Assembly (NCBI GenBank): GCA_017458065.1
Contig: JAFTGD010000043.1
Location: 124,001-188,000 of the forward strand
Direction: 5' to 3'
Source: Oscillospiraceae bacterium
GTDB taxonomy: Bacteria; Bacillota; Clostridia; Oscillospirales; Oscillospiraceae
Length of the DNA: 64,000 bases
Position numbers and translations under genes: made by a program. Below the pieces are notes generated by a model. The model ran no database searches. It worked only from the letters and a program-made list of their open reading frames with translations, and was not told the DNA's origin. Below are positions 454 through 2,727 of this stretch, piece after piece. Numbering within the stretch: position 1 is the first letter of the stretch; the number at the start of each line of letters is the position of its first letter.

Positions 454-2727
454 ATGGGAACATTTCACTATACCTTATTATATGGCCTGATTAACTTCGC
501 CATCCTGGCAGTCGCCCTGTATTTTGTCGGCAAGAAGATCATTCCGAAAATGTTCGGCGGACGCCGTACCGGAATCGTCGACCAGATCAAGGCGGCTGAT
601 GACGCGGAGGAAAAGGCGAAAGAACTGCTCGCCGGGATTGAAACTGCCAATCAGAAGGGCGAGGAGGAATGCGCCGGCATCCTGAGTGCGGCACGCTCGG
701 CCGCCGAGGCGGATGAAGAGCGCACCGAAGCCGCGGACCGCAGAGCCGCGGAGGAGATGACCGCCGAGAACGAGAAGGCGCTGCAGTACCAGAAACACAC
801 CGCCCGCACCGAGCTGACCCGCGACACGATGGATGAGGTGATTGCGCAGGCCGCTGTGCTGTTGGGGGATGACAGCCACGCCGCTGCCCGTGAGAAGATG
901 ACCGAGCGTCTCATTCTGCGCGCCGAGAAAAAGCTGCACATCACCCGCGGTGACCTGATGGCCTTCCAGGAGAAGGGCAGCATCCAGGTCGAGATGCGCG
1001 GTGTGACCGAGCCGTCCGAGGACCACATCCGCCGTGTCAAGGCGGCCATCCTGCGTGCCCTGAAGGATGCGGGCGAGGATGCAACTGAGGACCAGCTGAA
1101 CATCACCACCGCCGTGGACGAGAGCCTGATCGGCGGCGTGTACCTGCGTATCGGAGATACAGTCTATGACAGCACGCTCAAGGGAATGCTGAATCGTGCG
1201 AAGGATTCGGTTTCCGTACTTGAACATGACGACGAGGAGCTGATCGACGCCCTGAAGGAAGAGCTCGGCAAGGCCGACCGCGACCCGGCCGTCTATCAGA
1301 AGGGAACCGTCATCAGCGTATCGGACGGTATCTGCCGCATTTCCGGTGTGTCCGACGCCATGGCCGGTGAGCTGATTGAATTCAACCAGGACCTGCGCGG
1401 CATGGTCATGGACCTGGAAAAGGACAACATCGGCGTTGTCCTGCTGGGTGACTATTCCGGCCTGCAGGAGGGTGACGAGGTCCGCCGCAGCGGACGTATT
1501 ATCGAGGTCCCCGTCGGCGAGGAAATGATCGGCCGCGTGGTCGATTCCCTCGGCAACCCCATTGACGGCGGCGGAGAAATCCACACCACCGAAACCCGGC
1601 CTATCGAGAGTCCGGCACCCGGCGTCATCGAGCGCCGTCCGGTTTCCGTCCCGATGCAGACCGGTATCAAGGCCATCGACGCCCTGGTCCCCATCGGCCG
1701 CGGTCAGCGTGAGCTGATCATCGGCGACCGTCAGACCGGCAAGACGGCCATCGCCATTGACACCATCATCAACCAGAAGGGCAAGGACATGATCTGCATC
1801 TATGTCGCCATCGGACAGAAGGAATCGACCGTTGCCGGCTGCGTGCAGAAGCTGCGTGAGCATAATGCGATGGAATACACCATCGTGGTGTGTGCCAGCG
1901 CTTCCGAGTCTGCCCCGATGCTCTACATCGCCCCGTATGCGGGCGCTGCCATGGGCGAGTACTTCATGCACAAGGGCAGAGACGTTCTCATCATCTATGA
2001 CGACCTGTCCAAGCAGGCAGTCGCCTATCGTGAGATCTCCCTGCTGCTGCACCGTCCGCCCGGACGCGAGGCCTACCCCGGCGATGTCTTCTACCTGCAC
2101 TCCAGACTGCTTGAGCGCGCGGCGCGCCTGAGCGAGGAGGCCGGCGGCGGCAGCATGACCGCGCTTCCTATCATCGAGACCCAGGCCGGCGATATTTCGG
2201 CCTATATCCCGACAAACGTGATCTCCATCACCGACGGTCAGATCTTCCTGGAGACCGACCTGTTCAACTCCGGCGTACGTCCGGCTGTCAACGTTGGCCT
2301 TTCGGTCTCGCGTGTCGGCGGTTCGGCCCAGCTGGGTGCCATGAAGCAGGTCGCAGGACGTCTGAGAATGGACCTGGCGCAGTATCGTGAGCTGGCTGCC
2401 TTTGCGCAGTTCGGTTCAGACCTGGACAAGGCCACGCGTGCAACCCTGCACCGCGGCGACCGCATGACGGAGCTCCTGAAGCAGGGCCAGTACGCCCCGA
2501 TGGATGCATCCGACCAGGTTATCTCAATCTTTGCCGTCAGCGAGGGCTATGCCGACGGTGTCGAGCTGCAGGATATTGCTCGCTATGAACAGGGCCTGCT
2601 GCCCTATGTCAACAGCCGCTATCCGCAGCTGCGCAACCACATCATGAGCGGCAAGAAGCTCGGTGACGAGCAGCTGACCAGACTGAAGAAGCTCATTTCC
2701 GAGTATACCGAGAGCTTCGATGCGTAA
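454..2727 (+). CDS. atpA: ATP synthase b'-delta-alpha fusion protein
   Basis: One uninterrupted 757-codon frame joins three ATP synthase parts. Residues 8-26 form a membrane anchor and about 30-165 a charged b-type helix. Residues about 175-250 match the delta C-terminal domain, with the signature [14 protein letters not shown]. From about 256 onward it is a complete alpha subunit: P-loop GDRQTGKT at 424-431, [11 protein letters not shown], and [10 protein letters not shown] with the catalytic arginine. The P-loop offset from E. coli alpha is about 255 residues, so alpha is full length. The helical N-terminal domain of delta is not recognisable. No stop, frameshift or convincing internal ribosome site separates the parts; the ATG at 1186 has only AAGGG directly against it. 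A strong AGGAGGG precedes the start. b-delta fusions are known in mycobacteria; adding alpha is unusual. Confidence 0.9.

Follow-up and report, generated by a model that had tools for sequence, protein, structure and literature searches.

We analyzed a stretch of 64,000 nt from an Oscillospiraceae bacterium (contig JAFTGD010000043.1, positions 124,001 to 188,000; hereafter the window), whose F-type ATP synthase operon contains a gene joining in one frame a membrane-anchored b-type stalk subunit (b′), the C-terminal domain of the delta subunit (dCTD), and a complete alpha subunit. We confirmed that this b′-dCTD-alpha frame (hereafter the triple fusion) is real and not an assembly artifact. By analogy with an engineered enzyme, the gene probably encodes part of an F-type ATP synthase that naturally has several stalks and an increased ion/ATP ratio.

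Architecture of the Fusion Protein

The original prediction had read this frame as a transmembrane helix, a b-type helix, the delta C-terminal domain, and a full alpha subunit, and the Pfam and NCBIfam domains bear this out. The Pfam OSCP profile matches residues 196-251 over positions 114-170 of its 172 only (38.6 bits, cut-off 22.3) and the match therefore represents the delta C-terminal domain alone; with this profile, no delta N-terminal domain (NTD) was found before the dCTD in the fused open reading frame (ORF). Three ATP-synt_ab domains span residues 283-750. An AlphaFold2 (AF2) model of residues 150-280 presents the order of helices and strands of a delta C-terminal domain (mean predicted local distance difference test score, pLDDT, of 74.8). 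The best Foldseek match of this model in the Protein Data Bank (PDB) was mycobacterial b-delta (E = 5e-4), followed by the delta subunits of PS3 (6n2y_I) and E. coli (6oqr_W), with modest query TM-scores of 0.41-0.46. The AF2 model of the whole fusion, built from three sequences, failed with a mean pLDDT of 38.8. Searched against the PDB, the family profile scored highest with an engineered delta-alpha chain (9jc1_I, 149.5 bits, vs. 101.9 bits for the best plain alpha), and this alignment runs in one stretch across the delta-alpha junction.

The operon encodes F-type alpha, beta, gamma, epsilon, a, b, and c together, and the alpha part of the fusion scores only 168.7 bits as a V-type B subunit vs. 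794.8 bits as atpA, which places the enzyme among the F-type rather than the V/A-type ATPases. The dCTD inside the fusion is the sole OSCP match of the genome (E ≤ 1). The genome, whose assembly is 96.4% complete, yielded neither a separate two-domain delta, as found in F-type enzymes (OSCP profile), nor another F-type alpha. Since no other F-type alpha was found in the assembly, it follows that every F-type alpha carries b′-dCTD, unless processing intervenes.

An Engineered Precedent and a Proposed Mechanism

Ueno et al. (2025; PMC12229609) describe an FoF1 of Bacillus PS3 in which the delta NTD was deleted, the dCTD was fused to alpha, and the epsilon C-terminal domain was removed. Cryo-electron microscopy of this enzyme revealed as many as three stalks and three a subunits, its content of a and b was 2.2 and 1.8 times that of the wild type, and its H+/ATP ratio was 5.8 vs. 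3.0. According to the same source, the delta NTD of ordinary enzymes sits on the three-fold axis and limits the number of stalks to one. The engineered enzyme (PDB 9JC1/9JC2) and the window share the absence of the delta NTD and of the epsilon C-terminal domain as well as a dCTD attached through a short linker to the N-terminus of alpha. They differ in that a separate full-length b2 homodimer docks in PS3, whereas in the window b′ is fused, the other b is short, and the fusion is natural. The window encodes a natural, more radical version of the engineered dCTD-alpha design.

We propose that each of the three alphas would carry its own dCTD and its own membrane-anchored b′, that every b′ would pair with one separate shortened b, and that as many as three b:b′ stalks would hold F1 in place of a single one. 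The NTD that limits ordinary enzymes to one stalk is absent. Each stalk could recruit its own a subunit to the c-ring, and several a subunits would multiply the ions passed per turn, such that a small ion gradient could suffice for an anaerobe to make ATP. Being covalently attached, b′ should render the stalks obligatory and hard to lose. From the engineered enzyme, which shows both, we infer the assembly of several stalks and a subunits and an increase in the ion/ATP ratio; for the native enzyme, we likewise infer three stalks, more than one a subunit, b:b′ pairing, and a physiological benefit. We give even chances to a stronger form of this proposal: an obligate three-stalk synthase, present in a clade of anaerobic Clostridia, whose three b:b′-dCTD-alpha units, each with its own a subunit, would pass about three times the ions of the c-ring per turn and work at about one-third of the usual ion-motive force, delta-alpha fusion having evolved several times as a "gear change" of the ion/ATP ratio that leaves the c-ring unchanged.

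Co-adaptation of the Separate b Subunit

A b-like ORF was present directly upstream of the fusion in 27 of the 27 triple-fusion loci inspected, taken from 71 redundant loci. The projected length of b is 144-151 residues in triple-fusion operons (28 distinct sequences), compared with 164-176 in dCTD-alpha operons (60), 166-171 in delta-alpha operons (7), and 164-175 in unfused operons (68). The single short b of the unfused set (147 residues) belongs to a frameshifted triple fusion (G026). The separate b of triple fusions is about 20 residues shorter than in every other class, and inspection of ten b tails indicates that the missing segment is C-terminal. In known enzymes, the C-terminal segment of b contacts delta, and b′ was found by eye to keep such a segment, which continues into the dCTD. 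With b shortened and only b′ bearing delta, one b per b′ would be expected, hence three b:b′ pairs; the plain reading of these sequences is that b and b′ probably form a heterodimer in which b′ alone bears delta, with three pairs for the three alphas.

All alphas could be fused while one b:b′ pair docks on a single a subunit and the two other b′-dCTD arms stay idle in the membrane, leaving the ion/ATP ratio ordinary. A single a subunit per complex has indeed been the rule in the natural enzymes studied so far and the engineered enzyme frequently lost stalks, but the stalks observed in that enzyme always retained an a subunit (PMC12229609). In addition, b is short in all 28 triple-fusion sequences, which fits one b per b′ and not a b2 dimer accompanied by idle arms. 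We consider this arrangement unlikely.

The Junction and the Supply of Alpha

We measured the junction between the D of the delta motif VYD and the first G of the alpha barrel. Among the 43 rows of triple fusions (class A, in which the gene of the window is counted twice, as L055), 25 have a junction of 45 residues, 16 have one of 49, and one row each has a junction of 44 and of 43. A length of 45 residues is also the mode of the dCTD-alpha fusions (class B; 18 of the 33 rows measured, which are those where the pattern matched). Such a near-invariant length despite sequence drift is expected of a spacer. It argues against a precursor being cut between dCTD and alpha, in every copy or in two of the three, to yield b′-dCTD, free alpha, and a single-stalk enzyme. 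Linker sequences do vary and processing is invisible in DNA, but a cut b′-dCTD would be without the delta NTD that helps to hold delta on F1, and the architecture has persisted across five families. We therefore regard cleavage as quite improbable.

The production of two translated forms, the full fusion and a short alpha starting internally near codon 245 or later, appears very improbable. In 37 of 42 triple fusions, the N-terminal start is accompanied by a match of at least 4 nt resembling a Shine-Dalgarno (SD) sequence. The junction lacks any in-frame ATG in 15/42, holds an ATG with an SD-like match of at least 4 nt in 12/42, and holds any start with a match of at least 5 nt in only 5/42. 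The most common junction position is that of M245, which is an ATG in 18/42 but without an SD-like match in 16 of these 18 cases. No junction start position exceeds 18/42, and an internal start was rejected as a general mechanism; these sequences suggest that a separately translated alpha is not a general feature.

The original prediction had foreseen three outcomes for this fusion: tethering of all three alphas with up to three stalks, cleavage, or translation in two forms. The first appears to be the best supported, because the genome contains no unfused F-type alpha, there is no general internal start, the length of the junction is nearly locked, b is short, and an engineered precedent exists. 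We found little positive evidence for the two others.

Several points weigh against a multi-stalk enzyme. The c-ring would have to offer enough space for three stalks and three a subunits. The engineered enzyme averaged about two stalks, with rare triple-stalk particles and lower activity; its authors conclude that stalks probably detached during grid preparation (PMC12229609). In a BLASTP comparison, the two stalk strands of the window, b and b′, show only weak similarity (E = 0.22), and the letters of the linker drift, with a ratio of nonsynonymous to synonymous substitution rates (dN/dS) of up to 0.78 in one pair. The junction ATGs described above, at the M245 position or with an SD-like match, count on the same side, and a cut made in the finished protein would be invisible at the DNA level. 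Finally, the enzyme seems dispensable, because 9 of 36 same-genus genomes present no F-type alpha match (three of these being at least 95% complete). The genome of the window also contains a fragment of a V/A-type ATPase. This fragment of an A subunit, a third ATP-synt_ab match cut by the end of the contig (L058, G000 contig C17), rules out the fusion enzyme as the sole rotary ATPase of the genome. The ORFs ahead of it look V-type by eye.

Distribution and Integrity of the Triple Fusion

A search for this architecture across the order, as the original prediction had proposed, identified it in at least 18 of 394 genomes, own genome included, from families f1, f18, f19, f20, and f23 (one copy, in G178, is cut by a contig edge). 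It was also found in 23 of 36 same-genus genomes (22 at full length; G005 is cut by a contig edge). This amounts to 41 genomes of five families, own genome included and two of them cut by contig edges; besides the same-genus carriers, there are 17 more genomes of the order from four further families. Two named metagenome-assembled genomes (MAGs) also carry the triple fusion: RGIG3778 (L033, roe deer), named Oscillospiraceae at NCBI, and RUG14376 (L034), named Ruminococcaceae. The presence of the same architecture in many relatives indicates that the frame is no accident of assembly. The gene is cut by contig edges in same-genus G016 and G021. The stop or frameshift carried by G002 and G026 lies inside alpha and not between delta and alpha, where such a break had been named as evidence against the fusion. 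Rough dN/dS values from eight pairs are below 1 in all segments (0.15-0.51 for b′ and 0.03-0.76 for the dCTD), with synonymous sites near saturation in several pairs. An assembly error or pseudogene is hardly credible given the identical architecture of 41 genomes and two named MAGs and these dN/dS values, even though alpha is broken in 2 of the 36 same-genus copies.

Among the matches listed for 391 genomes drawn from the class and 398 drawn from the phylum, none from outside the order was an intact frame of such size spanning delta and alpha; in the phylum list, such matches should rank first. Both draws contain some genomes of the order. A 729-aa frame of the phylum draw (G1017) proved to be an ordinary alpha. 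We also observed that G417 possesses both a triple fusion and a dCTD-alpha fusion (L065/L131 and L089) and that G006 presents two full-length matches to the triple fusion (L007 and G006:C81).

Fusion Classes and Their Evolution

The order displays a range of arrangements. Canonical b, full delta (176-183 aa), and alpha are found in G057, G050, G056, G045, and G048, and a shorter delta of 159 aa in G041. In G051, a free 72-aa ORF (L038:3008-3226), by eye only a delta C-terminal domain, lies ahead of an unfused alpha and represents a possible intermediate. Fusions of dCTD and alpha of 571-587 aa stand behind an ordinary b in G052, G053, and G039, and b′-dCTD-alpha is present in G054, G055, and genus g1.

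Using our own profiles, we identified dCTD-alpha fusions in at least 45 of the 394 genomes of the order and, in the order and family, delta-alpha fusions keeping more of delta (class C) in at least six genomes. A tandem dCTD-dCTD-alpha was found in one genome, G134 (L113, frame from 2258 on the + strand, 681 aa), which could place six dCTDs on each F1. Within the class but beyond the order, the loci of 28 genomes comprise 15 dCTD-alpha (six of which are 679-aa frames that probably keep more of delta), one delta-alpha, and 12 unfused. All or part of the delta NTD is kept in the delta-alpha fusions of L096, L097, L100, L104, L112, L116, and L163 and in frames of the L149 type; three fused delta NTDs could hardly all fit on the axis. 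These class labels rest on profiles built from the same sequences, and the counts are lower bounds, 13 rows of the phylum draw with unbroken frames of 601-659 aa standing outside the classes. The boundary between classes B and C is soft: the six 679-aa frames labeled B probably keep a stretch resembling the delta NTD, as judged from L149, the only one read. L028 is labeled B solely because a contig edge cuts the gene, and L010 and L047 are labeled S because their frames are broken inside alpha. Among the 65 class B loci with enough upstream sequence, four have no b-like frame directly upstream.

We then considered the phylogeny of alpha. In a FastTree reconstruction of 179 of the 221 loci (identical cores and cores shorter than 400 aa were dropped; L055 duplicates the gene of the window), the 43 class A rows all grouped together with two broken or cut copies, with a support of 99. 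In a second tree of 98 rows hand-picked from the 179, a single branch sets the triple fusion apart from all other rows (27 of its 27 rows; Shimodaira-Hasegawa approximate likelihood ratio test, SH-aLRT, 99). A common origin of the fusions, tested as a clade of the rows labeled A, B, and D, was rejected by the approximately unbiased (AU) test (dlnL 389, P = 1.5e-62); this group was defined after inspection of a tree, rows labeled C were counted as unfused, and L122 (G307), probably a dCTD-alpha whose dCTD was missed by the profile, was left out. These results suggest that the triple fusion and the dCTD-alpha class are not one clade. The non-monophyly of the A, B, and D rows indicates that delta-alpha fusion arose, or was lost, more than once, and it could also mean repeated loss.

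Relation to Known Enzymes

Natural dDeltaN-alpha fusions have been named by Ueno et al. (Acidaminococcus fermentans, UniProt G4Q3K6 and A0A1I2C5T3; PMC12229609). As in the window, dCTD and alpha are joined and the delta NTD is missing, and these proteins resemble the class of about 580-625 aa that is widespread in the order; unlike in the window, no b′ is mentioned for these fusions. In our alpha trees, drawn without Acidaminococcus, the dCTD-alpha class and the triple fusion do not form one clade. No description of a b′-delta-alpha fusion was found in the literature searched, with few subscription journals covered. The original prediction took the b′-delta-alpha fusion to be undescribed or rare. 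Delta-alpha fusions in general were described in 2025 and are not rare in the order.

The fusion had also been likened to mycobacterial b-delta. A b-type stalk helix is joined to delta in both, and the dCTD model matches that protein (see above). Mycobacterial b-delta keeps the delta NTD, and the parallel is not close because this domain is missing in the window; the mycobacterial delta is complete and its alpha separate, whereas the fusion matches only OSCP positions 114-170 and has alpha in frame. The b subunit of N-type (alternate) ATPases is not known to be fused to alpha. Its family (TIGR03321) matches residues 6-234 of b′-dCTD weakly in NCBIfam, and we rejected membership in the N-type, the scores being far under the alternate-F1F0 cut-offs (649.3 < 750.5 bits for alpha; 52.6 < 224.7 bits for b). 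N-type F1Fo ATPases resemble the window in having a long b and no separate delta (PMC5706428).

V-type enzymes offer a different comparison. The V-ATPase has three EG peripheral stalks, one per non-catalytic subunit, and the enzyme of the window is likewise predicted to have three stalks, but its alpha, beta, gamma, epsilon, a, and c are F-type. Finally, in the Chloroflexus aurantiacus structure 9ITJ of the PDB, 6 entries account for 12 delta and 18 alpha chains, and 18 entries for 72 b chains. This points to two delta and four b for every alpha3, and perhaps to an F-type enzyme that naturally has two stalks.

The Surrounding Operon

The features of the operon are given in Table 1. The operon had been described as otherwise normal, but it is not entirely so: it has no delta gene and its epsilon is the beta-sandwich domain alone, the usual inhibitory C-terminal helical domain being missing. 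The c subunit presents E-S with Q and Y, which we take to be Na+-type ligands, in the genome of the window and in L033, and E-A (five) or E-T (one) in the six other triple-fusion operons whose c was recovered. The coupling ion may thus differ within the triple-fusion clade. An MnhE-type Na+/H+ antiporter subunit is encoded immediately upstream of the atp operon, 1.3-1.8 kb upstream of the window (L003:5209-5712).

Table 1. Features of the atp operon (positions refer to the window, or to locus L003 where given).
Feature	Position	Strand	Basis or remark
b′-dCTD-alpha fusion gene	454..2727	+	757 aa; single ATG-initiated uninterrupted frame
b′ part (transmembrane helix and stalk helix), residues 7-130	472..843	+	Pfam ATP-synt_B, 48.6 bits (cut-off 28)
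dCTD, residues ~176-250	979..1203	+	OSCP profile; AF2/Foldseek
Delta-alpha junction, D239 to G284, 45 residues	1168..1305	+	Length conserved among triple fusions
Complete alpha, residues 260-755, P-loop GDRQTGKT	1231..2718	+	NCBIfam atpA, 794.8 bits
Ribosome-binding site of fusion gene, AGGAGG	436..441	+	12 nt before ATG 454
atpF, separate b, 140 aa	1..411	+	Pfam ATP-synt_B, 65.1 bits; first 4 codons upstream of window
atpG, gamma	2741..3607	+	Pfam ATP-synt, 281.8 bits
atpD, beta	3611..4996	+	Pfam ATP-synt_ab, 244.9 bits
atpC, epsilon, 86 aa	5012..5272	+	Pfam ATP-synt_DE_N at residues 5-84
a subunit, upstream of window	L003:6015-6695		F-type a of same operon
c subunit, upstream of window	L003:6732-6962		F-type c of same operon
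Separate b, full ORF	L003:6989-7411		Directly upstream of fusion gene

Implications

F-type enzymes have been assumed to have a single peripheral stalk and a single a subunit, with the size of the c-ring fixing the ion/ATP ratio. Nature appears to have broken the one-stalk rule more than once. The triple fusion should be the most stable form of a multi-stalk enzyme, which makes it a natural candidate for the stably bound-stalk form that, according to Ueno et al. (PMC12229609), is needed to test whether the number of ions per turn scales with the number of a subunits. If true, a multi-stalk enzyme would also help to explain how fermenters subsist when ion gradients are small.
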